DNA of 64,000 bases, taken from positions 930,001 through 994,000 of the forward strand of contig NZ_JACHGY010000001.1 in NCBI RefSeq assembly GCF_014207595.1. The letters are read 5' to 3'. The notes beneath the pieces were generated by a model, which did not search any database, was not told where the DNA came from, and saw only the letters and a program-made list of their open reading frames with translations. The DNA is from Algisphaera agarilytica. Its GTDB lineage: Bacteria > Planctomycetota > Phycisphaerae > Phycisphaerales > Phycisphaeraceae. This document shows positions 19,360 through 35,950 of the stretch, in pieces; positions within the stretch are counted from its first letter, which is position 1; the number at the start of each line of letters is the position of its first letter. Position numbers and translations under genes: made by a program.

Positions 19360-20430
19360 ATGCTCGACCGTCAATTTACCCAACGACTGCTCAGCCCCAC
19401 CGACATCAGCGCGTCGCGTGATGACCTGAAAGTCATCGGTGTATTCAACCCCGGCACCACCCGACTGCCCGACGGCCGCATCGTTCTGATGGCCCGCGTC
19501 GCCGAGTCGCCGACCGAGCAACGCGAAGGGTTTCATGCCCTTCCGTCGTGGAACGGACAAGGCGAACTCGACATCGAGTACCTCCCCGAAGACCAGGACA
19601 TCCTCGTTGATCCGCGCAAAGTCGTTCGTGCCGCAGACCAACTCATGCGGCTCAAGTTCGTCAGCCATATCCGCACGTTCGTACTCGACGAAGCCGGCAC
19701 CGCCATCACCGGCGAACTCGCCTCGCTGTATTGCGAAGGGCCGTACGAAACCTTCGGCGTCGAGGACCCCCGCATCACGCTCATCGACGGCACGTACTAC
19801 ATCACCTACGTCAGCGTCAGCGAACACGGCGCCGCGACCAGCCTCACCACCACCACCGACTTCCAGAGCTACGAACGCCACGGCGTCGTCTTCTGCCCCG
19901 AAAACAAAGACGTCATGCTCTTCCCCGAGAAGATCAACGACAAGTTTGTCGCGCTGCATCGGCCCAATACGTTCCAGCGGTTCTGCAAGCCCGAGATGTG
20001 GCTGGCGAGTTCCGCCGACGCCAAGGCGTGGGGGGATCACCGCTTTGTATGGTCCGGACAGTTCGCCTGGGACAACGACCGTATCGGCGCGGGTGTGCCG
20101 CCGGTGAAAGTGCAGACCCCCGACGGCCCCGCTTGGTTGGAGGTCTACCACGGCAGCCGACGCGCCACGAAGAAAGGCGAGGTCGGCGCCTACATGGCCG
20201 GGCTCTTGCTGCTGGATTTCAACGATCCCACCAAGGTCTTGAAGCACACGCCCGAGCCGATCATGGGTGCTCAGGAAGACTGGGAAATGCAGGGCTTTGT
20301 TCCGAACGTGGTCTTCCCGACGGGGATCGTCGAGGACGGCGAGCGGTGGCTGGTGTACTACGGCGCGGCCGACACGCACGTCGGGGTGACCGCATACCGC
20401 CTGGATGACCTGATGGAGGCGTTGCGATGA
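19360..20430 (+). CDS. GH130-family glycosidase/phosphorylase
   Basis: About 356 residues. It has the five-bladed propeller signatures of GH130: VIGVFNPGTTRLPDGRIVLM near the N-terminus, ETFGVEDPRITLIDGTYYI, NKDVMLFPEKINDKFVALH, and VFPTGIVEDGERWLVYYGAAD near the C-terminus. GH130 enzymes phosphorolyse or hydrolyse mannosides, so this protein probably acts on beta-mannosyl linkages in the cytoplasm; no signal peptide is visible. It overlaps the next gene by ATGA. A second GH130 gene follows two genes later, and the pair probably split substrates or linkages. Confidence 0.88.
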   Translation: MLDRQFTQRLLSPTDISASRDDLKVIGVFNPGTTRLPDGRIVLMARVAESPTEQREGFHALPSWNGQGELDIEYLPEDQDILVDPRKVVRAADQLMRLKFVSHIRTFVLDEAGTAITGELASLYCEGPYETFGVEDPRITLIDGTYYITYVSVSEHGAATSLTTTTDFQSYERHGVVFCPENKDVMLFPEKINDKFVALHRPNTFQRFCKPEMWLASSADAKAWGDHRFVWSGQFAWDNDRIGAGVPPVKVQTPDGPAWLEVYHGSRRATKKGEVGAYMAGLLLLDFNDPTKVLKHTPEPIMGAQEDWEMQGFVPNVVFPTGIVEDGERWLVYYGAADTHVGVTAYRLDDLMEALR

Positions 20431-21128
20431 AGACCGTGGCGGTGACGGGAGCGAGTGGAGCGATCGGCCGGGCGCTGATGCAAGGGCTGAAGGACGTCTA
20501 CGATCTTCGGCCGATGTCGAGATCGATCAACGGCACGGACCTCATGAACCCCGAGGGGCTGGAAGAGAAATTCCGGGGATGCGACGCGGTGATCCATCTG
20601 GCCTGGGGCTACGCCCGGGAGAGCGAGGTGCCGGGCCGGTCGTCGCTGAACAACATCCTGATGCACCGCAACGTGATCGATGCGACGAAGGCGGCCGGCG
20701 TGAAGCGGGCGATTATGGCCAGCTCGGTCCACGCCGACTTCTTCTACGACTGGATGGGCCCGGGCCTGCTGGGGCTCGACCGACAGCAGCGGGCCAACGG
20801 GCTCTACGGCGGCCTCAAGCTGCTCATCGAAACGCTCGACGAAGAGGCGGCCGACGAGAACTACCGCATCGCCGACATCCGCTACGGCGGCGTCACCGAC
20901 GACGGCCAGCCCCACCCGACCGACACCTGGGAACGCCGCGTCTGGCTGAGCCACCCCGACCTCTGCGCGATGGCGAGGGCCATCCTCGACCACGACGACC
21001 CGCCGGCCTACGCCAAGCTCTACGCGGTCTCGGACAACGAGCACCGCGTCCACGACACCGCCAACCCGTTCGGCTGGGTGCCGCAAGACGCCGCCCCCGT
21101 CGACATACGTGACGACCTCGCTCCGTGA
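20427..21128 (+). CDS. NAD-dependent epimerase/dehydratase (uronate-dehydrogenase-like SDR)
   Basis: About 233 residues. An extended short-chain dehydrogenase fold is shown by the nucleotide-binding VAVTGASGAIGRAL, the VIHLAWGYA strand, the serine segment IMASSVHADFFYDW and a YxxxK pair in LYGGLKLLIETL. The short length and the end FGWVPQDAAP resemble NAD-dependent uronate dehydrogenases and related sugar oxidoreductases more than full UDP-sugar epimerases. Its start overlaps the first GH130 stop, so it is co-translated with it and probably handles a sugar released by the GH130 enzymes. The exact substrate is uncertain. Confidence 0.78.
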   Translation: MKTVAVTGASGAIGRALMQGLKDVYDLRPMSRSINGTDLMNPEGLEEKFRGCDAVIHLAWGYARESEVPGRSSLNNILMHRNVIDATKAAGVKRAIMASSVHADFFYDWMGPGLLGLDRQQRANGLYGGLKLLIETLDEEAADENYRIADIRYGGVTDDGQPHPTDTWERRVWLSHPDLCAMARAILDHDDPPAYAKLYAVSDNEHRVHDTANPFGWVPQDAAPVDIRDDLAP

Positions 21129-21257
21129 TGTCACGGAAGCCCTTTCCGCGCACGAAGCGTAAGCGAGTGCAAAACGTTTCCAACGCCGCCACCCGCCAAC
21201 GCTTCGTGCTCGGATCATGACTCTTCACCAAAAACAACCCCCGGGAATTGACCCGCC

Positions 21258-22373
21258 ATGCCCGACCCCCTGCCCCGCCTCGAGACCCGCTGCCTGATCC
21301 GCCCCGCCGACCTCCCGCCCTCGCGGGACGATTTCGAGGTCGTAGGGACGTTCAACCCCGCCGCTGTCCAGCTCGACGACGGGTCGGTGGTCATGCTGGT
21401 GCGCGTCGCCGAGCGCCCGACCGAGACGCGCGACGGCTTCGTCGCCTCGCCACGCTACAACGACCTGGGCGAGATCGAGATCGATTGGATCGACGCCGAC
21501 CTCGTCACCACGAACGACCCGCGGATGGCGATCTTCAAAGACACCGGCTTCAAGCGGCTGACGTTCATCAACCACCTGCGCGTCGTGCGTTTCGCCAGCG
21601 ACGGTGTGACGATCACCAAGGTCGGGCCGATCGTCGACTACCGCGCCGACCACGCGACCTTCGGCCTGGAAGACCCACGCATCACACGGATCGGCAGCGT
21701 CTACGCCGTCACCGCCGTCGGCGCTTCGCACCACGGCGTGTGCACCGTGCTGCTGACCACCACCGACTTCACCCACTTCGACGACCTGGGCATCATCTTC
21801 TGCCGTGAGAACAAGGATGTCGTGCTCTTCCCCGAGAAGATCGACGGGCACTACGTCGCGATCCACCGGCCGACCGGGAAATTCGAGGTGACCCAGCCGG
21901 AGATGTGGCTGGCCTATTCGCCGGACCTGCACTTCTGGGGCGACCACCAGCCGCTCTGGGGATCGGGCGACGGCGCAGCGAGCGTCGGCGGATCGTCGGG
22001 CTCGTGGGACGACGGACGGATCGGCGGCGGCGTGCCCCCCATCCGCACCGAACGCGGCTGGCTGAAGATCTACCACGCCTCCTGCAAACCCGGGCCCGGC
22101 GAACCCATCGGGGTCTACGCCGCCGGGGCGCTGCTGCTGGACCTCGATTGCCCGACGCGCGTGCTCGCCGCGTCTCCCGACGCGTTCATGCGGCCCGAAG
22201 AAGACTTCGAGAAGATCGGCTTCGTCAAAGCCGTCGTCTTCCCGACGGGCTACGCCATGCAGGGCGACGACATTCAGCTGTACTACGGCGCGGCCGACAC
22301 CAACGTCGGCGTCGTGCGTTACCGGCTTGCAGACCTTTTGGATTCACTGGTGCCCGTCGGCACCCCCGCCTGA
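21258..22373 (+). CDS. GH130-family glycosidase/phosphorylase (second copy)
   Basis: About 371 residues and clearly paralogous to the 19360 gene: DDFEVVGTFNPAAVQLDDGS, ATFGLEDPRITRIGSVYAV, NKDVVLFPEKIDGHYVAIH and AVVFPTGYAMQGDDIQLYYG occupy matching positions. It differs by an insertion around residues 236-252 (GSGDGAASVGGSSGSW), rich in glycine and serine, which may alter the active-site rim. There is no signal peptide. With the SDR gene between the two it forms a small sugar-catabolic unit, probably for mannose-containing oligosaccharides. Confidence 0.87.
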   Translation: MPDPLPRLETRCLIRPADLPPSRDDFEVVGTFNPAAVQLDDGSVVMLVRVAERPTETRDGFVASPRYNDLGEIEIDWIDADLVTTNDPRMAIFKDTGFKRLTFINHLRVVRFASDGVTITKVGPIVDYRADHATFGLEDPRITRIGSVYAVTAVGASHHGVCTVLLTTTDFTHFDDLGIIFCRENKDVVLFPEKIDGHYVAIHRPTGKFEVTQPEMWLAYSPDLHFWGDHQPLWGSGDGAASVGGSSGSWDDGRIGGGVPPIRTERGWLKIYHASCKPGPGEPIGVYAAGALLLDLDCPTRVLAASPDAFMRPEEDFEKIGFVKAVVFPTGYAMQGDDIQLYYGAADTNVGVVRYRLADLLDSLVPVGTPA

Positions 22374-22491: not shown

Positions 22492-23037
22492 TTACCCGCC
22501 CAGGCCCTTGAGCAGATCGCCCGCGCCTTGCGCCTTTTCGAGAAGCCCCTTGAGGCCTTCGATCTGGTCGGCGTAGCCCTCGGGGAGTTCCATGCCTTCG
22601 AGCTTGCTGATCCATTGGCTGGCGGTGTCGTAGTTCTCTTCGCCGATGAGGTCTTTGACCTTCTTGATCACGCCGTCGAGCTGTTCGCTGTTGAGCGACA
22701 TGCCTTCGGTCAGGCTGTCGAGGGTGATGCCACCCGCATCGGCCTCGGAGTTGGAATCGGTCAGCTCGTCGAGCTTCTTCTTGCCGGCGTCGACGGCCTC
22801 TTCGACTTCCTTCTTGCCGGCCTCATAGGCGTCGGCACCGGCCTCGGAGATTTCCTTGCCGGCGGCCGCGGCGTCGTCCTTCAGGGCGTCGAGGGCGTCG
22901 CCGGTCTTGTCGGTGGTCACCTCGGCAGCGTCTTTGACGGCTTCGGTGGCTTCGGCGGTGGCGTCCTTGGCTTCTTCACATCCGACCGTCAGGCCGGCGG
23001 CAAACAGGAACGCGATCGAGAGAGATTTCATTTTCAT
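22492..23037 (-). CDS. Small Ala/Glu/Lys-rich secreted or lipoprotein, helical
   Basis: About 181 residues. A signal peptide MKMKSLSIAFLFAAGLTVGC ends at a cysteine that may be lipidated, though the residue at -3 is threonine, so the lipobox is weak. Residues 22-100 are a low-complexity, heptad-like helix rich in Ala, Asp, Glu and Lys, with repeats such as EAVKDAAEVTTDKTGDALDA, resembling stress-associated helical proteins. The rest is acidic and probably helical. GGAG seven bases before the ATG at 23037 sets the start; the frame continues upstream without support. Function unknown; likely periplasmic or outer-membrane associated. Confidence 0.75.
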   Translation of the reverse strand: MKMKSLSIAFLFAAGLTVGCEEAKDATAEATEAVKDAAEVTTDKTGDALDALKDDAAAAGKEISEAGADAYEAGKKEVEEAVDAGKKKLDELTDSNSEADAGGITLDSLTEGMSLNSEQLDGVIKKVKDLIGEENYDTASQWISKLEGMELPEGYADQIEGLKGLLEKAQGAGDLLKGLGG

Positions 23038-23355
23038 CGGGGGTCTCCAAAACAGGGGGAAGGCGAGATCGGTCTGAAAATTATAGTTGATCCGCTCGCC
23101 AAGCCCGACAACGCCAAACCGAAGCGTTGCGGCATTGATGGATTCCCCGAGTTCTATCAGGAAAAAAAGAGCGACACGGCGACAGTGTCGCCGCATCGCC
23201 CCGGTTCCTCGAGCGGGGCCGGGGGATTCCACCGCGTCGAGGAGGGTCAAGGACGGGTGCCAATGCTCAACACACGGCTGAGGCCTTGGCGAAGTTCGCG
23301 TTACCCCTCATGGGTTTAGTGCGTCCTTGACCGACTTTGAAAATACGGCGTACAC
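23038..23355. other. Intergenic stretch with one terminator
   Basis: No supported gene is seen here. The stretch contains the promoter side of the lipoprotein gene and, at 23162-23191, a terminator for the minus-strand gene upstream. The open frames crossing it are extensions of shadow frames. Confidence 0.5.
23162..23191 (-). terminator. Rho-independent terminator, minus strand
   Basis: On the minus strand a seven-base stem (GCGACAC / GTGTCGC, arms 23185-23191 and 23171-23177) is followed by TC and seven T residues. The inner bases can also form the compact palindrome at 23178-23192. It lies about 165 bases past the small lipoprotein gene at 23356-23616. Confidence 0.7.
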
Positions 23356-23721: not shown

Positions 23722-24378
23722 TCAATCGTCCAGTTGGGTCAGCCCCTCACGGATCGCGAACTTGGTCAAGTCGGCGATGCTGTTGGTGCCCAGCTTTTGC
23801 ATGATGTGCTGCCGGTGAGTCTCGATCGTCTTGACCGACACGAACAGATCGCTGGCGATCTCCTTGGTCGAGCGTCCCTCGGCCATGAGCTGCAGCACCT
23901 CGCGTTCACGCGGCGTGAGCGACTGGAACTGCTCCGAGCCCTCCGAGCGGTCGTCACGCACGTAGTCCCCCACCACGACCTGACCCACCGCCGGGCTGAC
24001 GTAGGTCTTGCCCTGCAGCACCATGTCCATGGCACTGCGGAGCTCTTCGAAAGCCGAGTCTTTCAGCAGGTATCCCGAGGCCCCGGCCTGGAACATCCGC
24101 CGGACGTAACGCCCATCGGACTGCATCGACAGCGCCACCACCTTCACGCCGGGCACTTCGTTGGTCACCTGCTTGGCGGCGTCGATCCCGTTGAGGTCGG
24201 GCATACCCACGTCCATCACCAGCAAATCGGGCTTGAGCTCACGGGCCAGCGACACCGCGCTGCGTCCGTCGCCGGCTTCCCCGACCACTTCATAGCCGTC
24301 CAACGCTTCGATCAAGGCGCGGACCCCATCCCGGACGATCTTGTGGTCGTCCGCCAAAAGAATTCGGATGTTCTTCAA
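23722..24378 (-). CDS. NarL/FixJ-family response regulator
   Basis: About 218 residues. The receiver domain begins RILLADDHKIVRDGVRALIE, with the phospho-acceptor in LLVMDVGMPDLNGID and YLLKDSAFEELR later. A LuxR-type helix-turn-helix follows: LTPREREVLQLMAEGRSTK through LFVSVKTIETHRQHIMQKLG. It is the last gene of the five-gene GTPase operon, 57 bases after the kinase, and is the likely output of that signalling unit. It is a different pair from the 15028 regulator, although both belong to the same family. The N-terminal ATG lies directly at the receiver start. Confidence 0.92.
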   Translation of the reverse strand: MKNIRILLADDHKIVRDGVRALIEALDGYEVVGEAGDGRSAVSLARELKPDLLVMDVGMPDLNGIDAAKQVTNEVPGVKVVALSMQSDGRYVRRMFQAGASGYLLKDSAFEELRSAMDMVLQGKTYVSPAVGQVVVGDYVRDDRSEGSEQFQSLTPREREVLQLMAEGRSTKEIASDLFVSVKTIETHRQHIMQKLGTNSIADLTKFAIREGLTQLDD

Positions 24379-24435
24379 GACACAAACCTATCCATACAAG
24401 CCTCGGCGGCTCGGGCCTCCCCGGCCGCCCCTAGT

Positions 24436-25632
24436 TTAATCAGATTTCAGCGGCACGCTGATGATCGACCGCGTTCCTTGCCCGCGGCCCGCGTCATCCT
24501 CCGTGCCCGGCGTGCTCGTCACCCGGAGACTGGCCCCGAAGGGTGACAGCCTTTCCCGCACGCTCAGCAGTCCGAATCCGCCCTTTCCGACCCGCGGACG
24601 CCCGAGTTGTTCGACGTCAAAACCGCGGCCGTCATCTTCCACGACCAGTTCCATCTGCTGTTCCAAACGGCGGGACGACACCTTGAGCCGGGTCGCCTGG
24701 GCGTGTTTGAGCGTGTTGGTGATCAGTTCGCGGACCACCTGAAACAGCAACACCGCAAGATCAGTTTCCAACGGCTTGGGCTGGCCGTCGTCTTCAAACG
24801 TGCAAACCAGCGGGGCGTGTCGCTCGCCGGTCTGCTCAACCAATGTCGACAGGGTTGGGATAAGTCCTAGTTCGTAGAGCATCGGGGGGCTGAGTTCGAA
24901 GGTCAGGCTCCGCGTGGCGTCGATCGCGTCGGCGAGCAGCCCGATGGTGTCCTCCAGCCGATTTTTCGACTCGGGGTCCGAACACCGGGCCGTCTCGCTG
25001 GACACGCGCATCTTGGCGACCGCCAGGAGTTGGCCGACGTGGTCGTGCAGCCCGATCGCCAGCCGGTGCCGTTCACGCTGCTCCGCCAGCGCCACCTCGG
25101 ACGCCAACGCCCGGAGTTGCTGGTTGGACGCGTCGAGCTCGGCCGTGCGCTCCGCGACGCGTTGGCGCAATTGTTCTTCGACCAGTTGCCGCACCGCGAG
25201 CTCCCGGTCCGTCGCCAGCCGGCGTTCACGCGCAGTCTGCAGGATGCTCTGAGCCGGAGAAAACTCCAAGCCGACCCCCGCAATCACCAACACCCCCTGG
25301 CCCGCAACCCGCAGCGCGACCGCTTCTAGCTGACGGTCAGTCCCGTCACGATCCGGCTCGGCCCAGACCTCGGACCGCAGCGTCGCATCGGCCGAGTCTT
25401 CCGGCTGACTCGCCCACCAGTCGCGCGCTTCGTCGAGGAAGAAATCGAGAAACGTGAAGTGCTGCGTCGGTTCGCAGGGCTCTTCGATCGCGCAACCAAA
25501 CCGCTCGGCCCAATCCGGCAATCGGCCGACCCAGACAAAGCGTTCATCGCCGACCGGCGCATCGGGGGCCTGAGCGATGACCAACAGGCCCATCGTGTGA
25601 ACCACACCGGAGAGAAGTGATGCGTCGTTCAA
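24436..25632 (-). CDS. Sensor histidine kinase (HisKA_3) linked to a small GTPase
   Basis: About 398 residues. The N-terminal 150 residues are a non-transmembrane sensory region I cannot name (VHTMGLLVIAQAPDAPVGDE at the start). A coiled coil (about 150-195, LVEEQLRQRVAERTAELDAS) leads into the phospho-acceptor motif IGLHDHVGQLLAVAKMRV, then a HATPase_c domain with LITNTLKHAQ, VEDDGRGFD and GKGGFGLLSVRERL. The start is probably TTG at 25632, sharing bases with the GTPase stop (TTGA), which couples the two proteins one to one. It should be soluble and may respond to the GTPase or to the membrane protein encoded upstream. Confidence 0.88.
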   Translation of the reverse strand: MNDASLLSGVVHTMGLLVIAQAPDAPVGDERFVWVGRLPDWAERFGCAIEEPCEPTQHFTFLDFFLDEARDWWASQPEDSADATLRSEVWAEPDRDGTDRQLEAVALRVAGQGVLVIAGVGLEFSPAQSILQTARERRLATDRELAVRQLVEEQLRQRVAERTAELDASNQQLRALASEVALAEQRERHRLAIGLHDHVGQLLAVAKMRVSSETARCSDPESKNRLEDTIGLLADAIDATRSLTFELSPPMLYELGLIPTLSTLVEQTGERHAPLVCTFEDDGQPKPLETDLAVLLFQVVRELITNTLKHAQATRLKVSSRRLEQQMELVVEDDGRGFDVEQLGRPRVGKGGFGLLSVRERLSPFGASLRVTSTPGTEDDAGRGQGTRSIISVPLKSD

Positions 25633-26129
25633 GCCAGCACCCCGCGGGCCAGTTCTTCGAACGCCTGATTCACCGCGTCGCCGGTCTTGGCGCTGGTGTG
25701 GAGCGTGGCGAGCGCCTTGTCGCGCAGCCCCAGGAAATCGCTCGAGGGCTCGCCGATCGCCCAGGCGTCGGTGAGGTCGGCTTTGTTGAGCACAAGCACA
25801 AACGGCAGCTCACCCACCTCGCGGATCACCCGCTCGTGGAGCATCTTCGCGGTCTCCAGCGTGTCGGGCCGGGTGCCATCAACGACCAAGAGGTAGCCGG
25901 AGCTGCCCCGCAGGTAACGCATCTGCACCGACACGAAATCGTCTTCACCCGCCAGGTCCCAGAGGATCAGCGAAAGCGATCGGCCGTCGAGGTCGACGGT
26001 CTTCTTGTCGATCTTCACGCCGATGGTGGACTGATAGACCTCGGAAAAGATGCTCTTGACGTACCGCGCAACCAGGCTGGTCTTCCCGGTGGCGAAGGCG
26101 CCGAGCATGCAGATCTTGCGTGATTCCAT
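25629..26129 (-). CDS. Ras/Rab-like small GTPase
   Basis: About 166 residues, the size of a bare Ras-superfamily domain. Motifs: G1 GAFATGKTSLV (residues 10-20), the switch I threonine in YQSTIGVKID, G3 DLAGEDDF, G4 LNKADL and G5 TSAK. The residue after G3 glycine, equivalent to Ras Gln61, is glutamate, so intrinsic hydrolysis may be altered or depend on a partner. This is a bacterial small GTPase of the MglA/Rup-type assemblage, not a translation or ribosome GTPase. The upstream gene carries a roadblock-like region, a fold that partners such GTPases. It overlaps the kinase start. Confidence 0.88.
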   Translation of the reverse strand: MESRKICMLGAFATGKTSLVARYVKSIFSEVYQSTIGVKIDKKTVDLDGRSLSLILWDLAGEDDFVSVQMRYLRGSSGYLLVVDGTRPDTLETAKMLHERVIREVGELPFVLVLNKADLTDAWAIGEPSSDFLGLRDKALATLHTSAKTGDAVNQAFEELARGVLA

Positions 26130-26206
26130 GACGTGACTTTCGTCAAAACCCAGCCGACATCGTACCCATCAAACCGGGCACGTCGAGCCGTTGTCCTGAG
26201 ACGGCC

Positions 26207-28051
26207 TCACGGCCGGGCGGCCAACTCCACCTCGAACGTCACCCGGCGGTTGCGCTGCTGGTCGGCCAGGGGCATCGTGTCGGGCACGATCGGCTGATCC
26301 GCCGCCATGCCCACCTCGACCATGATCGGCGGCGCCTGCATCCGTGAACGGATCATCTCGGCGACCGCGGCGGCCCGGGCCTGACTGAGTTCGAGGTTGC
26401 GTTGAGGGTCACCCGACAGGTCGGTGTGGCCGGTCACGATAAGTTTAAGCTCCATGCCGATGGCGTCGGCCGCGGCCTGAGCACCGGACACATCTTCGAG
26501 CAACTGCGAGGCCATGACCTCTTGCCCGTTCAAGTCCAGCGTGCTGCCCGAAGGCATATCGATGACACACGCCTCGATCCGACCGGCAAACACCTCGAGG
26601 TCTTCCATGTCCCGGTCGACCAGACCCGAGTCGTCGAACGAGGTCATGCCCGCCGTGACGAGTTGCGCCGAAAGCGAAAGCGTCCTTTCGATCCACGCGT
26701 GCGGTGCAAGGCCCTCGGCAATCAGGACCGAGCCTTCGGTGCGCAGGGTCACCGAGGCCGGAGGATCAAGCAGCTGCTCCGCCTGCTCCAACAACGTCGG
26801 CGGTTCGGGATCGAGCGCAGGCTCAGGTAGCGGGGACTCCTGGATCTGCACCGTGGGGTAGTGCTCCCAACGCTGGCTGACTTCTTCCGGATCGATCCCC
26901 GAGTTGGCCAGGATTTCGTCGGGCAGGTGCGCAGCATCCGGGCTGACCAAACCGCGGACCTCGGACCGGCCCCACCAGTTGTGGTCGTCTTCCACCAGCA
27001 TGATGCCCCGCGTGCGTTCGAGCTCGTAGACGTAGCCCGCCCATTGCCGATTCGACAACACCCCCGCGAGGACCGCCCAGAGGACCAACCCCAAAACAAC
27101 CGCCACGAAGATCAGGAACGCGGGAGACACCTTGCGTTTGGCCCCGGGCTGCGCCGCACTGACCAGGCAACGCTGGAGTTCGGGTTCGACCACTTCCATT
27201 TCCGAATCGTCGCCGGCAAACGTTTCGAGAAGCTCGCCGTGACGCAGGTGGATGTCTTCGAGCACCTGCTGGAACACCTCACGCAGCTCCGCCGGGGCCG
27301 AGCCCCGCACCGCCCCAGCGAGGATTGCGTGGGGCCCGCGCTCGACCCAGACCGTCACGCCGCCGACCTGCATGGTGCGTAGACCCGCCTGATCATCGGT
27401 GTTGAACGAATCGCGGACAAACTCGGTGATCGCCGTGAACATGCCCGAGACCAGCTGCTCGTCGCGCGTTTCCACGCCGTCCGCCGCGACGTGTTGCATC
27501 AACAAGCCCGACTCGGTGTGGATCAGAAACACCTGCTCCACGCGGTAACGCAGCGTATTCAGCAGCACGACCTCCGCGAACGGCTTGCCGGTCCGTGCCG
27601 CCTCCATCCGCCACTTCAACGACTTGATCGACAGGCTGTGCTCGAGCGTCTGGTTCAGTGACTGGACCGCACTGGCCAGGGCTTCGCTCACCGCCTTGCG
27701 GATCGCCGGGCCGATGACCGGGAACACCGCGTCGATCATGGGCTGGGGGTTGTTCTTGACCGAGGTTTGGATCGCCTCTTCCACCGTGCCCGACAGCGCA
27801 CGGCCGAGTTGATCGTCCTTCTGCTCGCGCAGCGTAATCGCCTGAGGCAGGAGCTCGGCGATGTCCTGGGCCTGCGCACGCGACGAGGCGAGGGTCTCGC
27901 GCAACTCGGCGAGCTCTTCTCGCTCGGGCCCAATCAACAACTCACGCAACTGAGCCAGCGTCTCGGCGTCACCCAACGGGCTGGGCGAGGACTGGCCCGG
28001 GGACTCCGCGGGAGACTCGGATGTTTTCGCGTTGTCGGACGGGTCATCCAT
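26207..28051 (-). CDS. Roadblock-like/OmpA-domain single-pass membrane protein
   Basis: About 614 residues from the ATG at 28051 (a GTG at 28063 is possible). Order: a polar N-terminus with a coiled coil (about 20-70), then a helical segment; a region around 145-290 whose text (VEQVFLIHTESGLLMQHVAA, LRTMQVGGVTVWVERGPHAI) reads like a roadblock/LC7 longin-type fold; one membrane helix at about 310-332 (FLIFVAVVLGLVLWAVLAGV); a periplasmic BON-like stretch; and a C-terminal OmpA peptidoglycan-binding domain (IVTGHTDLSGDPQRNLELSQ) from about 530. It would connect the cell wall to a cytoplasmic GTPase-binding region. The roadblock call is by text resemblance only. Confidence 0.75.
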   Translation of the reverse strand: MDDPSDNAKTSESPAESPGQSSPSPLGDAETLAQLRELLIGPEREELAELRETLASSRAQAQDIAELLPQAITLREQKDDQLGRALSGTVEEAIQTSVKNNPQPMIDAVFPVIGPAIRKAVSEALASAVQSLNQTLEHSLSIKSLKWRMEAARTGKPFAEVVLLNTLRYRVEQVFLIHTESGLLMQHVAADGVETRDEQLVSGMFTAITEFVRDSFNTDDQAGLRTMQVGGVTVWVERGPHAILAGAVRGSAPAELREVFQQVLEDIHLRHGELLETFAGDDSEMEVVEPELQRCLVSAAQPGAKRKVSPAFLIFVAVVLGLVLWAVLAGVLSNRQWAGYVYELERTRGIMLVEDDHNWWGRSEVRGLVSPDAAHLPDEILANSGIDPEEVSQRWEHYPTVQIQESPLPEPALDPEPPTLLEQAEQLLDPPASVTLRTEGSVLIAEGLAPHAWIERTLSLSAQLVTAGMTSFDDSGLVDRDMEDLEVFAGRIEACVIDMPSGSTLDLNGQEVMASQLLEDVSGAQAAADAIGMELKLIVTGHTDLSGDPQRNLELSQARAAAVAEMIRSRMQAPPIMVEVGMAADQPIVPDTMPLADQQRNRRVTFEVELAARP

Positions 28052-28126
28052 AGGCGGTGCCACCCCTAACCATCAAGATCGGGCCAGCCCCTGACCGCTG
28101 CACCCATGAACCCCTTAGCTGTCGAC

Positions 28127-28657
28127 CTACTCTTCTTCAGCCACCAGCGTGTCGGCCAAATGACGCAGCACCTCGGCCACCTCATCCCGGCTGGTCAGTT
28201 CGCTGCGGAGCTGGGTCATGGCTTCGGTCAACACCTCGGTCTGGCGCTGCTCGCTCCGGGCCAACTCGTCACGGATGGCTTTGGCTTCCTGGGCGATCTT
28301 GGCTTCCAGCGACTGCTGCGCCGCGGCGGCGGCGGATTCGAGTTCGGCGAGTCGGCCGGTGAGTTCAGCTTCCACCGCCTGGACGTGTTCGGTCCGCTCG
28401 GCAGCCTCGGCTTCCACCGATTCGCTCAGCGTGTCGATCTGCTTCTGCAGCTCGGAACGCAGCGACGCGATGGCTTTGTCCTGGTCCTTGCGGAGGGTGT
28501 CGATCTCCTTGGACAGACGTTTCTCGATGCCGTCAAAACGCTTTTCGCTCTGCCGGGCCTGAGTGCCAAACAGGATGTCGCGGACTTTATCGAGGCTCGC
28601 GGCATCGGGGTTGTCGTTAGATGGATTCGCCGAGTTCTTGCTGGTGGATTTAGCCAT
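28127..28657 (-). CDS. Coiled-coil protein of the GTPase operon
   Basis: About 176 residues and highly charged. A conserved-looking opening, DKVRDILFGTQARQSEKRF, precedes a nearly continuous coiled coil (about residues 40-155) with heptads in IEKRLSKEIDTLRKDQDKAI and AAAQQSLEAKIAQEAKAIRD. The C-terminal RDEVAEVLRHLADTLVAEEE may be a short helix for binding a partner. It has no signal peptide or membrane segment, so it is cytoplasmic. As the first gene of the operon with the OmpA-type protein and GTPase, it probably scaffolds or bridges them. No enzyme motif is present. Confidence 0.75.
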   Translation of the reverse strand: MAKSTSKNSANPSNDNPDAASLDKVRDILFGTQARQSEKRFDGIEKRLSKEIDTLRKDQDKAIASLRSELQKQIDTLSESVEAEAAERTEHVQAVEAELTGRLAELESAAAAAQQSLEAKIAQEAKAIRDELARSEQRQTEVLTEAMTQLRSELTSRDEVAEVLRHLADTLVAEEE

Positions 28658-28861: not shown

Positions 28862-29650
28862 CTAACCCTTAGCGTTCACCGAGTTCAGCCATTGGCGCAG
28901 GGTCTGCGCATCCGCCGCGAGGTTGCCCGGGTCGTTGTCACGTACGAACTCCAGCAGTGCAAACATCTCGCCGCCCTCCGCCAGACGCGGACAGGTCATC
29001 GCCTGACGCAGATACGTCGGCCACATCCCCTGGCCCTCGGCCAACGCGTGACGCTCGACGGTTTCCACGTCCCACTGGAACACATGCACCCCCACCAAGC
29101 GAGGCAGCGCCGTCTCCATGTCTTCCAGGCAATCCGCAAACGCCATGCGCTGGTGCGGCTGCCAATAGGTCTGAAACGCGGGGTGGTCCACCGCGTCGAA
29201 CAAGGCCTGCGCCGACTCCGCGGTGTCGGTCAGCGTTTTGCCGTGCCACTCGCAGGCGATGGTGATGCCCGCCTGATCCGCGACCTCGGCGGCGCTGCGC
29301 CCCGCATCCGCCACGCGTTTTCGCCAGTCCGCGTCTGCGTCGGCCGAACCCTTGTTCCCGCACCACACCCGGATGATCTTCGCGCCGAGCTCCGCGGCGG
29401 TGTCCACCGTCTTCTGCCACTCGTCCAGTTCGTTCACCCCGAGCCAGTGGTACGACCCGTAGGCCGCGACTTCGAGGCCGTGGTCGCGGGTGAGCTCGGC
29501 GACGTGGGCGGCGGTGCCCAGTTGGCCGACGGGCACATGGATGTCGCTGCCCCACTCGATGCCCTGGAGCTGGGTCTCCGCCGCCCAGTGGCAGACTTCC
29601 TCGGCAGACAGTTGGCGGAACGTGATGGAAACCAGACCGGGACGGATCAT
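28862..29650 (-). CDS. Sugar-phosphate isomerase/epimerase-like TIM-barrel protein
   Basis: About 262 residues, AP_endonuc_2-type (xylose-isomerase-like) barrel. Landmarks are SITFRQLSAEEVCHWAAETQ, the metal-ligand-type ITIACEWHGKTLTDT, LVGVHVFQWDVETVERHA near strand 7, and IEWGSDIHVPVG early. The start at 29650 fits the family N-terminus; the frame continues upstream through the tRNA-Leu gene, which cannot be coding. It probably interconverts a keto sugar or related cytoplasmic metabolite. The stop precedes a 200-base spacer containing no recognised gene. Confidence 0.8.
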   Translation of the reverse strand: MIRPGLVSITFRQLSAEEVCHWAAETQLQGIEWGSDIHVPVGQLGTAAHVAELTRDHGLEVAAYGSYHWLGVNELDEWQKTVDTAAELGAKIIRVWCGNKGSADADADWRKRVADAGRSAAEVADQAGITIACEWHGKTLTDTAESAQALFDAVDHPAFQTYWQPHQRMAFADCLEDMETALPRLVGVHVFQWDVETVERHALAEGQGMWPTYLRQAMTCPRLAEGGEMFALLEFVRDNDPGNLAADAQTLRQWLNSVNAKG

Positions 29651-29745
29651 GCGTAAACTCCTGGGTGGCGAGATACCCCAGTCTAGCCCGGCGGGTCGGC
29701 TTTGCGTTGTGCGCGACGAGCCGTAAACTGTGCGATCCGAGACAC

Positions 29746-29829
29746 GCCGGAGTGGCGGAATTGGCAGACGCGGTGGATTCAAAATCCACTGGTGGCAACA
29801 CCTTGTGGGTTCGAGTCCCACCTCCGGTA
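29746..29829 (+). tRNA. tRNA-Leu (CAA anticodon)
   Basis: An 84-base class II tRNA. The acceptor arm GCCGGAG pairs with CTCCGGT (ending in a G-U pair) plus discriminator A. The D arm (TGGCGGAATTGGCAGACG) is followed by an anticodon stem GTGGATT/AATCCAC with loop CAA anticodon, a variable arm (TGGTGGCAACACCTTG), and the T arm GTGGGTTCGAGTCCCAC. No CCA is encoded. The large variable arm and anticodon identify leucine. It lies divergent from the isomerase gene and is followed by a short T-run. Confidence 0.95.
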
Positions 29830-30000: not shown

Positions 30001-30972
30001 ATGCGGCGACGATTCAAAATCTTCCGGCGAATCCTCTGTGCTCTTCTCGTCGCCTTGGCGGTGATCTTTGGGCCCTACCTGACGTCCCGGGCGCTGTCGC
30101 CGTTCCGTGTGGTGAGCAGCTACGAAGTGACGCCCTCTGTTGACGCCACCCCTACGGAACCCACCGCCCCGCTGCGTGTCGCCTGCTACAACATCGCCCA
30201 CGGGCGCGGGCTCGCCCAAGACAACTGGTCCGGCGGCACACCTGACGAGAGGATTCAACGCCTCAACGACATCGCCGAGCTCTTGAAAACCCTTGATGCC
30301 GATGTCGTGATACTCAATGAAGTGGACTTCGACGCGAGCTGGAGCAACCACGTCAATCAGGCCGAGTTTCTCGCCGAGGCCGCGGGCTACCCGTACGTGG
30401 CCGAGCAACGCAACCTCGATTTCCGGATGCTGTGGCGCACGTGGAAGTTCGGCAACGCGGTGCTCTCGCGTCACCCCATCACACGAAGCGAAGTCATCGA
30501 CTCCCCCGGTTTCTCGAACGCCGAAACCCTGCTGGCCGGGAAGAAGCGTGGCCTGGCCTGCACGATCGATTGGCACGGCCAAGGCATCCGCATCCTCGCC
30601 TCCCACCTCTCACACCGCAGCGAATCCCTACGCTCTCGCTCAATCGACCTGCTCATCGCCCCGCCGGACCTGCCCACGATCATCGCCGGCGACCTGAATT
30701 CCACGCCCACCGGCTTCCCCCGCAGCAAGCCCTCCGAAGACCACGGCAACGCCATCGACAAGATCGACGCTTCGGGCCTGTTCGCCCGGCGGCCCGTCGA
30801 TCCACCGACCGACCTGGCCGAGTTGACGTTTCACGCCGAGAAACCCATCAACGTGATCGACTGGATCATGATCACCCACGACCTCGCGTTCGAGGACTAC
30901 CGAGTCATCGACTCGCTATTGTCCGATCACCGCCCGATCGTGGCGGACCTGATCCTCAGCCCTGAGCAATGA
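30001..30972 (+). CDS. Endonuclease/exonuclease/phosphatase-family protein, membrane-anchored
   Basis: About 323 residues. A basic N-terminus (MRRRFKIFRRI) and hydrophobic segment (LCALLVALAVIFGPYL) look like a signal anchor, so the catalytic domain would be outside the cytoplasmic membrane. EEP-family motifs follow: VACYNIAHGRG, VVILNEVDFD, ILASHLSHRSE, IIAGDLNSTPTGFP and SDHRPIVADL, covering the metal-binding and catalytic Asp/His residues. Members hydrolyse nucleic acids, phosphoinositides or sphingomyelin, and the substrate is open here. The last 17 bases overlap the convergent helicase gene. Confidence 0.85.
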   Translation: MRRRFKIFRRILCALLVALAVIFGPYLTSRALSPFRVVSSYEVTPSVDATPTEPTAPLRVACYNIAHGRGLAQDNWSGGTPDERIQRLNDIAELLKTLDADVVILNEVDFDASWSNHVNQAEFLAEAAGYPYVAEQRNLDFRMLWRTWKFGNAVLSRHPITRSEVIDSPGFSNAETLLAGKKRGLACTIDWHGQGIRILASHLSHRSESLRSRSIDLLIAPPDLPTIIAGDLNSTPTGFPRSKPSEDHGNAIDKIDASGLFARRPVDPPTDLAELTFHAEKPINVIDWIMITHDLAFEDYRVIDSLLSDHRPIVADLILSPEQ

Positions 30973-33900
30973 AAACCGCGCCTTCGCGCTCTTCCAGAAT
31001 CCCTCGGCCCAACAACGCTTCAAGCTCACGTTCGATCACTTCGCGCAGGTTGCTGCGCGTGGAAGCGAAGCCCAGCAGGCGGGAGGATTCGATCACCGCG
31101 TCTTCTTTGCTGACGCCGATCGCGACGCGGGCCACGCTCTCGAGCGCAAACCGCACCTCGGCGGGCGGCAGGAACTCGGGCTTGCGTAGGCCCGGCGACT
31201 CGACGTCCGCCCGGCTTCGCACCTGCGACACCGTCGACACGCCGGGCAACGAGTAGAAGCCCAGGCCGTTCTCCAGCTTGCCCGCGTTCACCGCGTCGGC
31301 CAGGGCCGACTCGAGCAGCCGGGTGACCTTGCTGGTCATGCGGTCGACCTTGTAGATGTCCGCGGCGCGACGCATGACCTCTTCGCCGTGCACCGGCTCC
31401 TCGATCTCGACGACCTTGGTCACCAGCTCGATCAGCTGGAAGTTGTCGAGGTCCTCCAGGTCTTTGCGCGGCACCTTCTTGAAGCTCGCCTCGACGTACG
31501 GCCCACTCGGGATACCCGCAAAACGGTCGGTTTCCTGTTCGGGGTCAACCGCTTCACGCTCGATCACCGGGCGAGACTTGGCGGGTTTGCTGCCCGACTC
31601 GGCCTGACCCGCACGTGCCGATTCGACCGCGTCGAGGATCTTCTGCAGTTGTTCGTGCGGACGGTTGAACCAGTCGATCGACCACAGGCGGTGGATCGAC
31701 CAGCCGCGCATCTTCAGGATGAACTCCCGGCTCGAATCGCGTTCCCGGGCTGAGCGACACGCCCCGTAGCCCGGGCCATCGAGCGTGATGCCCAGAAGAT
31801 ATCGGCCGGGCGTCTCAGGATCGACGATCGCGAGGTCGACGTAGAACCCCGCTTCGCCGACATGGGCCTCGACGGTGTGGCCCGCCTCGGTGAGCGCATC
31901 GGCCACGCTTTGCTCGAACACGGACAGGTCGCCGAAGCGCTCGGGCGCTCGGCCGTCGAATGTGCCGGTCTGGGCGTAGCGGAGGAACGTGCGGAACGCG
32001 GCGGGGCCACGCTTGCTGACGCGCGAAAGGTCGATGTCGTCGGCCGTCATCGAGCTGAAGACTTCGAGGCGTTTCTTGGCCCGGGTGATGAGCACGTTGA
32101 GCCGGCGCTCGCCGCCATCGTTGGACAGCGGGCCGAAGTTCATGGTGAGATTGCCCTCTTCGTCCGGGCCGTAGCCGACGGAGATGAAGATCACGTCGCG
32201 CTCGTCGCCCTGGATGTTCTCCAGGTTCTTGACGAAGAACGGCTCCTCGGTGTCCTCGGCGAAGAAGCCTTCCACATCCTTGTTCTTCCGCCGCAGGTGT
32301 TCGATCTCGTCGAGGATCGCGTCACGCTGGCGGACGCTGAACGCCCCGACGCCCAGGGTTAGCTCGGGCGTCTCGGTAGCGTGACGCATGACGGCCTCGG
32401 CGATGGTCTGGGCCTCGACGCGGTGCGTCGCGGTGCCGCCGCGGTCGAAGTGGCCCTCGGTGATCTTGTGGAATCGCAGGCCGAGGTCCTCGGGGTCGCG
32501 GCGCGGACTGGGGATGACGAACAGGTTGCTCTCGTAGAACTCGCGATTGCTGACCGCGATGAGCGAGGGGTGCTGGCTGCGGTAGTGCCAACGCAGCATG
32601 GCGCTGGGCATGTTCTGGGCGGTGCACAGGCCCAGGATCGACTCGAGGTCGGAGGTGTCGAGCTCGGTGTCGTCGGTTTCGTCTTCGTCGCCGCCGGAGG
32701 TCATCGCGTCGAAGAACCGCGTCGGCGGGAGCTGTTTGTCATCACCGACGACCACGATCTGCTGGCACCGGCTGACGGCACCCAGCGCATCGACCGGGCG
32801 GACCTGCGAGGCCTCGTCCATCAGCATCAGGTCGAACTCGAGGCCGCCGGGCTCGAGGTACTGGGCGACCGACATCGGGCTCATCATGAAGACGGGCTTG
32901 ATCGCCTGGATCGCGAGGCCCGCTTCGCGCAGAAGCCGCCGCAGGGGCAGGTGCCGGCGTTTCTTCTGGAACTCGCGTCGCAGCAGGCCGACCTGGCCGA
33001 CCTCGCCGCCGCCGCGGGGCAGGCCGTCGTGGTGGGCGGTGGCGACTTCGTGGCGGGCAAGGGCGAGGCGGTCGCCGTCGAGCTTGCGGAACTGTTCGAG
33101 GGTGTGTTCGTGGCTCTCGCCGGTGAAGCGGGCGAGCTCGGGGTGGGCCTCGAAGGTGTGGCGGAGCAGGGCTTCGTAGTACGCCATGTCGAACGCGTGG
33201 GCGGCGTCGGCCGGGGCGCGTTCGCCGTCGTTGAGTTGTTCGACGAGTTGGGCCATGCCCAGCGCCTGGGCCGAGGCCCGGCGGTCGCGGACGCTGATCC
33301 AACGCGTCAGGCCGTCGGGTTGCTGCACCCATTCTTCAATACGTTTCGCCGCGAGGCCCAAAGCCACGTCGCTGACCTGCTCGACTCCGAATGCTTCGTT
33401 GAGGTCGAGCTGGACCGGGCCCGTCGCCGCCTCAAACGCCCGCCCCGCCGAGGCGACCGCGTCGTCGGCTTCATCCGCCAGCCCCGTCAACGGTGAAACG
33501 TCTTCGATCTTCGCCACCAGCTCCCGGCAGCGTTCCGCGTCGCCCTGTTCGTCGTTGCGGCGGTTCCAGCCGTGGAGCTTGCCCAGCGCATCCCAGTCGG
33601 ACGCTTCGCCGCGCCACATCGTGCCGAAGGCGTATCGGCCGATGGCGTCGTCGCGCTCGATGGCTTTCAGGGTCTTCTGCGCTTCGAGCAGTTGGTCGAC
33701 CAGCTTCAGGCGTTCTTCAAGCGGCTTGGGCGGCGGGCCGGTGAGCACCGCGGCGAGCTGGCGTTTGGCGCGTTTGTACGCCGGGTTGAGCCAACGCAGC
33801 CACGACTTGCCGAAGCTCGCCAGGTCCAGCCGGGTCTGCGTCAGGTCGGCGGACCAACCGGCGTCGTTGACCTTGCCGTCGAGCTGCTTGCGCACGGCGG

Positions 33901-35950
33901 TGAGGTTCAGGCCGTGCTCGACCAGCTCGGACAGTGCGGTGGCCTGCTGGGCCCAGACCTCGTTCTGGATCGCCTCGCGGTCGAGCATCGGCACCGCGGC
34001 GAGTCGGCGGGCGCGGCTCGACAGCGTCTGCGTATGCCCGGCCGTGGTTTGCGCGTCGTCTTCCAACGCATCCGCCAGCGCCCGCGCCTTGGTCTCGGCC
34101 CCGCGCAGCGACGCGGCGGCGCTCGGCAGCTTCTCGACCAGCCGCTGGAGGTCCATGGGCAGGATGCTGTCGATCGACGCGCCACGCCACGGGTGCTCGC
34201 CCGGCGTCCCCACCGTTTCGACCTGCTCGACAAACTCGCCCAGCGTCTGCCGGGCCGACTCGGCCTGGGCCGCGGTCCAGGCCGCGGGGTTGTCGAGGGT
34301 GAAGTCGGCTGGGGACACGCCCGCCGCGCGCAGCCGCACCAGCTCGCCGATCGCGTGGTACGGCGTCTCTTCCGACTCGCCGATCTCGGTATGCAGCGCC
34401 TTGGCGTGCTCGTTGAGCGTGTCGCGGGTCGAGGCGAGCTTCTCGAAGTAGGCCTCGGTGGCTTTGTGCTTCGGGCCGCCCAGGGCCAGCGTGTGTTCCA
34501 GGTCGTCGAGCACGGCACGCTTGCGGGCTTTGTGGGAGTGCAATTCGAGGCACATGTCGCCGATGCCCACGTTGGTTAGCCGGCGTTTGACGACCTCCAG
34601 CGCCGCCATCTTTTCGGCGACGAACAACACCTTCTTGCCCTCCTTCACCGCCGCGGCGATGAGGTTGGCGATGGTCTGCGACTTGCCGGTGCCGGGCGGG
34701 CCCTGGACGACCATGTTGCGGCCCTGCCGCACGCCCTCGACGGCGATGGCCTGCGACGTGTCGGCCGGGACAACGTGGATCATCTCTTCGGGGCCGATGA
34801 CCGTGTCCAGCATCACGTCCTCGGGCACAACCGGCTCGTGGTCCTGGAACCCGCTGTCACCGAGCAGTTGTTCGAGAAGCGGGTGCTCGGCGAGCTCTTT
34901 TTCGTCCTGCCAGTTCTCCGGATCGAGGTCGCGGTACATCAGGAATTTCGAAAACGAGAAGAACGACAGCACGATATCGTCGCCGAGCACTTCCCAGCCG
35001 TCGATGCCTTCGACGAGTTGGCGGACCTCGTCGATGTAAGTCGAAGGCTTAAAGTCGTCATCGAGTTCGGGAACCTCGGGCAGGTCCAGGCCGAACTCGG
35101 CCTTGAGCTTGGCCTGGAGCGAAAGGTTCGTCGTGATCTCGCTGTCGTCGTAGGTCAGCGAGAAGCGGGTACGGGCGTTTTTGCGTTCGAGGTGGACCGG
35201 GACCAGCAGCAGCGGCGCGTGGCGGGCCTTGTCCGGGCGCTCCTCCTCGTACCACTTGAGGAATCCCAGGGCCAGGAACAGCGTGTTGACGCCCTGCTCC
35301 TGCTGCGACGTGCGGGCGTCGTAGAACGTGCGAAGCAAACGCTTCTGCAAGTCCTCGGCGTTGAGCATGGTCTGCAGCTTGCGGTCGGTCAGTCGGGCCG
35401 GGTCGATCTCGGGGGCGTCTTCTTCATCCTCGGCCTCGCCTTCCGCAGCCTCCTCCACGGACGCAGACTCTTCTTCGGAATCCCCCGCTTCCGCATCGCG
35501 GAAGATCGCCCCGGCGGAGCCTTCCTCGACCTCGGGTAGCGATTCCACCTCGGCCTCGGGCTCCGGCTCGGCGGGTGTTTCGACGGGCTCGACTTCGCTT
35601 TCTTCCTTCTCGGGGGCGGGCACGAACGACAGCGCGTTGCCCTTATCCACCAGCAGGTGGAAGACCGCGTCGGACTGTTCATCCACGATCTCCAGCGCAC
35701 GTGAACGCTTACGCCGACGCGGCGTGTTGAGCAGGCGGTTGCGGGTGGAGAGTTCCAGCAGGTCCTGCCGGGCGGCGTCGAGCCGGCGGACCAGGGGTGA
35801 GGCCGTGGGGGCCTCGGCCTTCACATCCAGGAGCGACGCGGGAACGGCTTCCGGCGTATCGGCCGAGGCGGCATCCGCCGGGGTTTCGGGAGAGGGGTCT
35901 GGGGCGTTTTCCGGGGGCAGGGCGTTGGCATCGTCGGTCACGGCAGGCAC
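30956..35950 (-). CDS. DUF4011-SF1 helicase-Vsr-like nuclease, candidate phage defence
   Basis: About 1664 residues from a GTG start. DUF4011-type N-terminus (LLELSTRNRLLNTPRRRKR) contains an acidic low-complexity insertion near residues 110-195. The SF1 helicase core spans about 400-1300: Walker A GPPGTGKSQTIAN near 417, Walker B LMLMDEASQV near 1042, GDDKQLPPT near 1072, the motif RLNVLITRAKKRLEVF near 1287. Residues about 1360-1440 (GFYVDLAIVDP, GITLDGPGYG, RGWSIHRLW) read as a Vsr/DUF559-type nuclease domain, followed by a DUF3320-like domain (about 1490-1570). Such DUF4011-helicase-Vsr proteins are reported as single-gene antiviral candidates (Hhe); assignment here is by domain order only. 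Confidence 0.82.
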   Translation of the reverse strand: MPAVTDDANALPPENAPDPSPETPADAASADTPEAVPASLLDVKAEAPTASPLVRRLDAARQDLLELSTRNRLLNTPRRRKRSRALEIVDEQSDAVFHLLVDKGNALSFVPAPEKEESEVEPVETPAEPEPEAEVESLPEVEEGSAGAIFRDAEAGDSEEESASVEEAAEGEAEDEEDAPEIDPARLTDRKLQTMLNAEDLQKRLLRTFYDARTSQQEQGVNTLFLALGFLKWYEEERPDKARHAPLLLVPVHLERKNARTRFSLTYDDSEITTNLSLQAKLKAEFGLDLPEVPELDDDFKPSTYIDEVRQLVEGIDGWEVLGDDIVLSFFSFSKFLMYRDLDPENWQDEKELAEHPLLEQLLGDSGFQDHEPVVPEDVMLDTVIGPEEMIHVVPADTSQAIAVEGVRQGRNMVVQGPPGTGKSQTIANLIAAAVKEGKKVLFVAEKMAALEVVKRRLTNVGIGDMCLELHSHKARKRAVLDDLEHTLALGGPKHKATEAYFEKLASTRDTLNEHAKALHTEIGESEETPYHAIGELVRLRAAGVSPADFTLDNPAAWTAAQAESARQTLGEFVEQVETVGTPGEHPWRGASIDSILPMDLQRLVEKLPSAAASLRGAETKARALADALEDDAQTTAGHTQTLSSRARRLAAVPMLDREAIQNEVWAQQATALSELVEHGLNLTAVRKQLDGKVNDAGWSADLTQTRLDLASFGKSWLRWLNPAYKRAKRQLAAVLTGPPPKPLEERLKLVDQLLEAQKTLKAIERDDAIGRYAFGTMWRGEASDWDALGKLHGWNRRNDEQGDAERCRELVAKIEDVSPLTGLADEADDAVASAGRAFEAATGPVQLDLNEAFGVEQVSDVALGLAAKRIEEWVQQPDGLTRWISVRDRRASAQALGMAQLVEQLNDGERAPADAAHAFDMAYYEALLRHTFEAHPELARFTGESHEHTLEQFRKLDGDRLALARHEVATAHHDGLPRGGGEVGQVGLLRREFQKKRRHLPLRRLLREAGLAIQAIKPVFMMSPMSVAQYLEPGGLEFDLMLMDEASQVRPVDALGAVSRCQQIVVVGDDKQLPPTRFFDAMTSGGDEDETDDTELDTSDLESILGLCTAQNMPSAMLRWHYRSQHPSLIAVSNREFYESNLFVIPSPRRDPEDLGLRFHKITEGHFDRGGTATHRVEAQTIAEAVMRHATETPELTLGVGAFSVRQRDAILDEIEHLRRKNKDVEGFFAEDTEEPFFVKNLENIQGDERDVIFISVGYGPDEEGNLTMNFGPLSNDGGERRLNVLITRAKKRLEVFSSMTADDIDLSRVSKRGPAAFRTFLRYAQTGTFDGRAPERFGDLSVFEQSVADALTEAGHTVEAHVGEAGFYVDLAIVDPETPGRYLLGITLDGPGYGACRSARERDSSREFILKMRGWSIHRLWSIDWFNRPHEQLQKILDAVESARAGQAESGSKPAKSRPVIEREAVDPEQETDRFAGIPSGPYVEASFKKVPRKDLEDLDNFQLIELVTKVVEIEEPVHGEEVMRRAADIYKVDRMTSKVTRLLESALADAVNAGKLENGLGFYSLPGVSTVSQVRSRADVESPGLRKPEFLPPAEVRFALESVARVAIGVSKEDAVIESSRLLGFASTRSNLREVIERELEALLGRGILEEREGAVFIAQG

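Follow-up and report, generated by a model that had tools for sequence, protein, structure and literature searches.

Group 1 Rup systems, described by Wuichet and Søgaard-Andersen (2014; PMC4316618), consist of a coiled-coil protein, a protein that joins a conserved domain to a transmembrane (TM) helix and an OmpA domain, a Rup GTPase, and an output protein whose N-terminal region carries an invariant Gln. In Group 1 Rups the G3 motif has no Gln, a residue that may be supplied in trans, and membrane signalling via GTPase and kinase, analogous to that of the conservons, has already been proposed for them (PMC4316618). The actinobacterial conservons (Cvn/AGPS; PMC4316618, PMC13343842) likewise hold a small Ras-like GTPase, a platform of the roadblock/longin superfamily and a histidine kinase in one operon; their GTPase is of the MglA type, and it is accompanied by a separate MglB roadblock protein and CvnC, without a response regulator. 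In the MglA–MglB pair of Myxococcus, too, the small GTPase has a partner whose fold is related, MglB being a free roadblock homodimer. In eukaryotes, longin-fold domains are platforms that bind Rab-family GTPases, and pairs of longins serve as Rab exchange platforms (PMC6864590), as in Inturned–Fuzzy/Rab23, Mon1–Ccz1/Rab7 and TRAPP/Rab1. The open-access papers searched contained no later study of Group 1 Rup systems or of bacterial longins, and earlier mention elsewhere is possible.

The window analysed here is a stretch of 64,000 nucleotides from Algisphaera agarilytica (Planctomycetota; assembly GCF_014207595.1, contig NZ_JACHGY010000001.1, positions 930,001 to 994,000), and positions are counted from its first nucleotide. 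It contains five genes, all on the minus strand, which are given in order of transcription:

28127..28657, minus strand: coiled-coil protein, 176 aa, with the conserved N-terminal motif (V/L)DK(I/V)RD(I/L)LFG-x-Q
26207..28051, minus strand: membrane protein, 614 aa, with a cytoplasmic helical and predicted longin-fold part, a TM helix, a periplasmic segment and an OmpA domain
25629..26129, minus strand: Group 1 Rup/Rab-like GTPase, 166 aa (PF00071, 5.7e-32), with the G3 motif DLAGE, in which Gln is replaced by Glu62
24436..25632, minus strand: soluble histidine kinase, 398 aa, TTG start, with HisKA_3 (His196) and HATPase_c
23722..24378, minus strand: NarL-type response regulator, 218 aa, TTG start, with receiver Asp56 and a GerE helix-turn-helix

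The intergenic gaps are 75, 77, -4 and 57 bases in the same order, and an alternative GTG start for the membrane protein is possible at 28063. The Pfam E-values were 5.7e-32 for Ras, 2e-07 for OmpA, 5e-14 and 3e-07 for HATPase_c and HisKA_3, and 4e-27 and 5e-22 for Response_reg and GerE. The last two genes thus show the make-up of a NarL-type two-component pair, with HisKA_3 carrying His196 and HATPase in the kinase, and Asp56 and GerE in the regulator. Hydropathy analysis gave no TM helix for the coiled-coil protein, the GTPase or the regulator. The kinase start and the GTPase stop overlap as TTGA, and this 4-base overlap is kept in the sister genomes G002 and G001 (loci L087 and L088), where the kinase starts with GTG and ATG, making the TTG start credible. 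A promoter scan of the operon found none, and terminator-like sites there were about as frequent as expected by chance. A first-pass annotation had given the five genes with exactly these coordinates and spacings, the stop codon shared with the TTG start included. Its gene order and domain calls were borne out by Pfam, apart from a roadblock-like region in the membrane protein, and its statement that the arrangement had not been described proved wrong, as it was reported in 2014 as the Group 1 Rup system (PMC4316618).

By gene content, G3 residue and output Gln, the operon is a Group 1 Rup system with a two-component output. It has the coiled-coil protein, the protein with domain, TM helix and OmpA, the GTPase without G3 Gln and a kinase with the invariant Gln; since all the features listed in PMC4316618 were found, it is of the described kind plus a response regulator. 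What sets it apart from the published description are the NarL-type response regulator in the operon and the longin fold now predicted for the conserved domain. The GTPase has Ras-like G1-G5 motifs, and in an alignment of 105 GTPase relatives G10/G15/K16/T17, T35, D58-xx-G61, NK-x-D and S146-A147 were nearly or fully invariant. None of these sequences has Gln in G3, and 99 have Glu, as does the GTPase of the window (Glu62). The nearest solved relatives by sequence were Rab23 structures (5e-26). Association with an MglB-type roadblock protein, a trait of the MglA family, was not found, the Robl_LC7 model giving no match in the organism's own genome. In contrast to the conservons, the platform is fused here to a TM helix and OmpA, and the GTPase is Rab/Rup-like.

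Conservation of the five genes as neighbours had been set beforehand as a test, and the results showed that they are kept together far above chance. Eighty loci, gathered by the GTPase alone and including many from Mesorhizobium that are not independent, span Alpha- and Gammaproteobacteria, Desulfobacterales, Bryobacterales, Gemmatimonadales and Roseithermus. The OmpA gene adjoins the GTPase gene in 79 of the 80. A script placed it directly upstream in 76/80; in L017, L039 and L061 it was masked by an over-long or overlapping GTPase start, and L004 is the sole exception. The coiled-coil gene precedes the OmpA gene in 69 of the 80 loci (by script), and in the seven loci with the OmpA gene and without the coiled coil, the contig ends inside the OmpA gene. 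Among 392 genomes of the same phylum, 18 encode the longin/OmpA protein, and the Rup GTPase was found in 17 of these and in no others, compared with a chance expectation of 0.8 shared genomes, a contrast that relatedness inflates. The distribution is patchy, with the GTPase present in six of 61 near relatives.

In the sister genome G002 the five genes are all present and their order is unchanged. Elsewhere in the phylum the kinase is often kept, and the regulator lies nearby but shifted or on the opposite strand (L117, L118, L120, L123, L128 and L129). Strict adjacency of the regulator is thus not kept by other members of the phylum, which makes the kinase–regulator pairing less certain outside the genus. 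That same displacement would suit the view that the five genes are chance neighbours. We regard this as very improbable, and it is largely refuted by an order kept over several phyla, by the 17/18 co-occurrence and by the 4-base overlap shared by three species with different start codons.

Variants of the locus were also observed. The locus L091:6052-11238 (G057) is scrambled, with the GTPase on the plus strand and a metallo-beta-lactamase-fold protein, the longin/OmpA protein and the coiled coil on the minus strand, and no output gene adjoins the GTPase there. In L115 (G072) a distance of about 4 kb separates two Rup GTPase genes on one strand, and output-like genes lie beside both. Just downstream of the operon, window positions 22492-23250 encode a lipoprotein-like, Ala/Lys/Glu-rich protein without a Pfam match, and a similar repeat-rich gene lies downstream in G002 (L087:9072-9737). 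G002 also has a TIM-barrel gene (L087:2768-3640) similar to the one upstream of the operon (window 28862-29821). A tRNA-Leu (caa) lies at 29746-29829 on the plus strand, opposite the start of ORF 28862-29821; the true start of this ORF is probably further in. Further afield, two GH130 (mannooligosaccharide phosphorylase-type) genes flank an epimerase-family gene at 19360-22373, and positions 30956-35950 encode a 1664-aa helicase-nuclease protein (DUF4011, AAA_11/12, REase_MTES_1575, DUF3320). Helicase-nuclease proteins of the DUF4011/REase_MTES_1575 kind are often suspected of a role in defence.

The membrane protein was divided into the following parts:

27173..27544, minus strand: predicted longin-fold domain, residues 170-293 (AlphaFold model, Foldseek, VIA-align)
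27056..27118, minus strand: single TM helix, residues 312-332 (hydropathy 2.95)
26582..26794, minus strand: periplasmic segment with one BON-like unit, residues about 420-490 (by pattern and by eye; without Pfam match)
26252..26452, minus strand: OmpA wall-binding domain, residues 534-600 (PF00691, 2e-07; GHTD and LSQARA motifs)

The cytoplasmic part (residues 29-315) was modelled with AlphaFold as a single model from an alignment of 22 natural sequences. In this model residues 170-293 (model residues 142-265) form the order ββαβββαα, with block-mean pLDDT mostly 75-97. This is the canonical longin order, whereas the roadblock type is αββαβββ(β)α (PMC6864590). Foldseek searches of the PDB with the model of the cytoplasmic part returned 21 hits at E below 0.001, led by longin domains and longin-like subunits of Sec22b and of the COPI, AP and TRAPP complexes. 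The top match of VIA-align was Sec22b (Z 14.0, 126/128 residues, 2.8 Å), followed by Vamp7 (Z 13.5), Ykt6 (13.2) and Fuzzy (13.0-13.1), where rows within 1 Z count as tied; Mon1–Ccz1 gave Z 10-11. From the model and these fold comparisons, the conserved cytoplasmic domain of the membrane protein is predicted to have a longin fold.

Sequence methods showed no such link. Hmmscan of 22 domain homologues against Pfam gave no significant roadblock or longin match, the Longin model PF13774 matched nothing in the organism's own genome up to E 10, and a search of PDB sequences with the domain profile gave nothing significant. The claim is therefore of a predicted longin fold and not of membership in the Pfam Longin family. 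Compared with the longin Rab exchange factors, with which it would share the fold and a Rab-like GTPase, the protein is bacterial, shows one longin per chain, is fused to a TM helix and OmpA, and gave no sign of homology at sequence level.

We think it improbable that the domain is instead a roadblock (αββαβββα). In favour of a roadblock, the model has a short helix ahead of β1, the Foldseek list includes MglB and Asgard roadblock proteins below the longins, and the best match of the profile among PDB sequences was an Asgard roadblock, at a non-significant E of 0.47. However, two helices follow the sheet, and the longin matches at Z 13-14 cover them, whereas the roadblock-type alignments listed by VIA-align (Ego3 and Gse1p, Z 10.4-10.5) do not reach the last helix and leave the short first helix unused. 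The comparison of the domain with a roadblock alignment by hhalign gave a probability of 0.1%. The roadblock-like region of the first-pass annotation thus held as a fold of the roadblock/longin superfamily in the model, but a longin fits it better and is invisible at sequence level. A GTPase nearest to Rab23 lies here beside a predicted domain with a fold like that of Fuzzy, which forms with Inturned the longin-pair exchange factor of Rab23 (PMC6864590); this pairing is suggestive and no more.

On the periplasmic side, the OmpA proteins of L089, L091 and L010 (Mesorhizobium) are extended by BON-like units of about 65 residues and reach 911-1020 aa, compared with 614 aa in the window; the extra units look like a length spacer to the wall. 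An N-terminal motif that by eye seemed common to the coiled-coil and OmpA proteins was dropped, since a profile built on the coiled-coil motif did not retrieve any OmpA protein.

The N-terminal part of the kinase comprises two features:

25276..25626, minus strand: PAS-like N-terminal domain, residues 3-119 (model; fold searches with modest scores)
25237..25239, minus strand: invariant Gln132, in the helix after the PAS-like domain (alignment; PMC4316618)

The model of this region had a mean pLDDT of 86.6, and its resemblance to PAS was modest (Foldseek E 2e-3; Z about 7.9, a value also reached by common arrangements). The kinase has no TM helix, and a marginally hydrophobic window in it coincides with strands of the PAS-like model. 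A second longin was considered for this N-terminus and rejected, Fuzzy standing low in a Foldseek list that PAS domains lead.

The outputs encoded 3′ of the GTPase, as assigned by Pfam, are varied. The HisKA_3 kinase of the window has counterparts in HisKA kinases or hybrid kinases (L007, L008, L016, L060, L071, L074, L118 and L120), class III adenylate/guanylate cyclases (L010 of Mesorhizobium and L084), HD-GYP-type HD domains (L002, L049 and L070) and SpoIIE/PP2C proteins (L006 and L090). Of these, the cyclases, the HD-GYP type and the PP2C proteins are not among the 'typical' outputs that PMC4316618 names. Several of the kinase versions, including that of the window, have a response regulator nearby. 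The outputs share an N-terminal region that leads into a helix bearing an invariant Gln. Two sequence types of N-terminus occur, and the Gln is present in 13/13 of the window's type and 10/10 of the other, a pattern complementary to the missing G3 Gln of the GTPases. As this front end is kept while the enzymes are exchanged, it is best explained as the site of GTPase action, which points to the PAS/Gln N-terminus of the output as the GTPase contact. The outputs of L002, L012, L039 and L071 apparently have both N-terminal types in tandem (by eye), and such tandem modules may be two GTPase docking sites in one output. At L090:691-3509 (G019) a single GTPase gene is followed by SpoIIE/PP2C and HisKA_3 kinase genes, each with its own Gln-helix N-terminus.

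The five-gene set is likely a signalling line from membrane to DNA around a Rab-like switch. The first-pass annotation had likewise proposed that the membrane protein reads an envelope signal and the GTPase relays it to the kinase and regulator, an idea that holds and that resembles the earlier proposal in PMC4316618. Our favoured reading, to which we give slightly better than an even chance, is that a wall-anchored longin protein controls the Rup GTPase, the GTPase gates the kinase and the kinase drives the regulator. The OmpA domain and the variable periplasmic segment would tie the membrane protein to the wall, and the state of the envelope would alter the longin platform, which is probably a dimer and may be helped by the coiled-coil protein. 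The platform would promote nucleotide exchange on the Rup GTPase or otherwise recruit it. GTP-bound Rup would then dock on the PAS/Gln helix of the cytoplasmic kinase and change its activity, and the kinase would phosphorylate the NarL-type regulator, changing transcription. The switch may be reset by the invariant Gln of the output helix, acting in trans to complete the hydrolysis of GTP. In other genomes the common front end would drive cyclases, HD-GYP enzymes or PP2C phosphatases. For the longin part, exchange factor or recruiter is ranked first on two grounds: longins in pairs serve as Rab exchange platforms (PMC6864590), and the Gln helix is a separate candidate for hydrolysis.

We infer the direction of signal flow through the operon, and a different one can be drawn from the same genes. 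The longin domain could be a GAP or a passive scaffold. In that case Rup would be held or silenced by the wall-anchored protein, the kinase would receive the signal at its PAS-like domain, and the GTPase would act either as a brake or as an output further down the line. PAS domains commonly serve as signal inputs; MglB, whose fold is related, has been described as both GAP and GEF (PMC11016934); and the conservons have been argued to have the GTPase as output (PMC4316618). Nevertheless, in the window and in the sister genome the kinase gene is followed by that of a dedicated response regulator, and the outputs elsewhere are plain enzymes (cyclases, phosphatases) that look like end points, so we consider this arrangement unlikely. 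Rup and the longin/OmpA protein could also gather the output enzyme at wall-anchored sites in the manner of MglA, for which there is precedent (PMC4316618), with the nucleotide state not gating catalysis. The wall-binding OmpA domain and the variable length of the periplasmic part would suit such positioning; the pattern of the invariant Gln better suits a catalytic or allosteric contact than mere tethering, and we rate positioning as quite unlikely.

In the open-access literature, Group 1 Rup systems have been without a tested function or a partner mechanism since 2014, and the predicted longin names a likely GTPase-binding platform. If the prediction is right, a Rab-like GTPase stands beside a longin partner in bacteria, which bears on the origin of the Rab machinery. 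Roadblock/longin proteins are thought to be archaeal in origin, with longin homologues named in Asgard archaea (PMC10933270), and longin/roadblock, lumped together, was given as present in bacteria in a 2016 table (PMC4917890). We put forward only tentatively, as doubtful yet possible, that Group 1 Rup systems contain a true bacterial longin–Rab pair across several phyla, with a wall-tethered longin exchange factor homologous by fold and partner to the eukaryotic ones. If such a pair does occur in several bacterial phyla, the longin topology would extend beyond Asgard archaea and eukaryotes.
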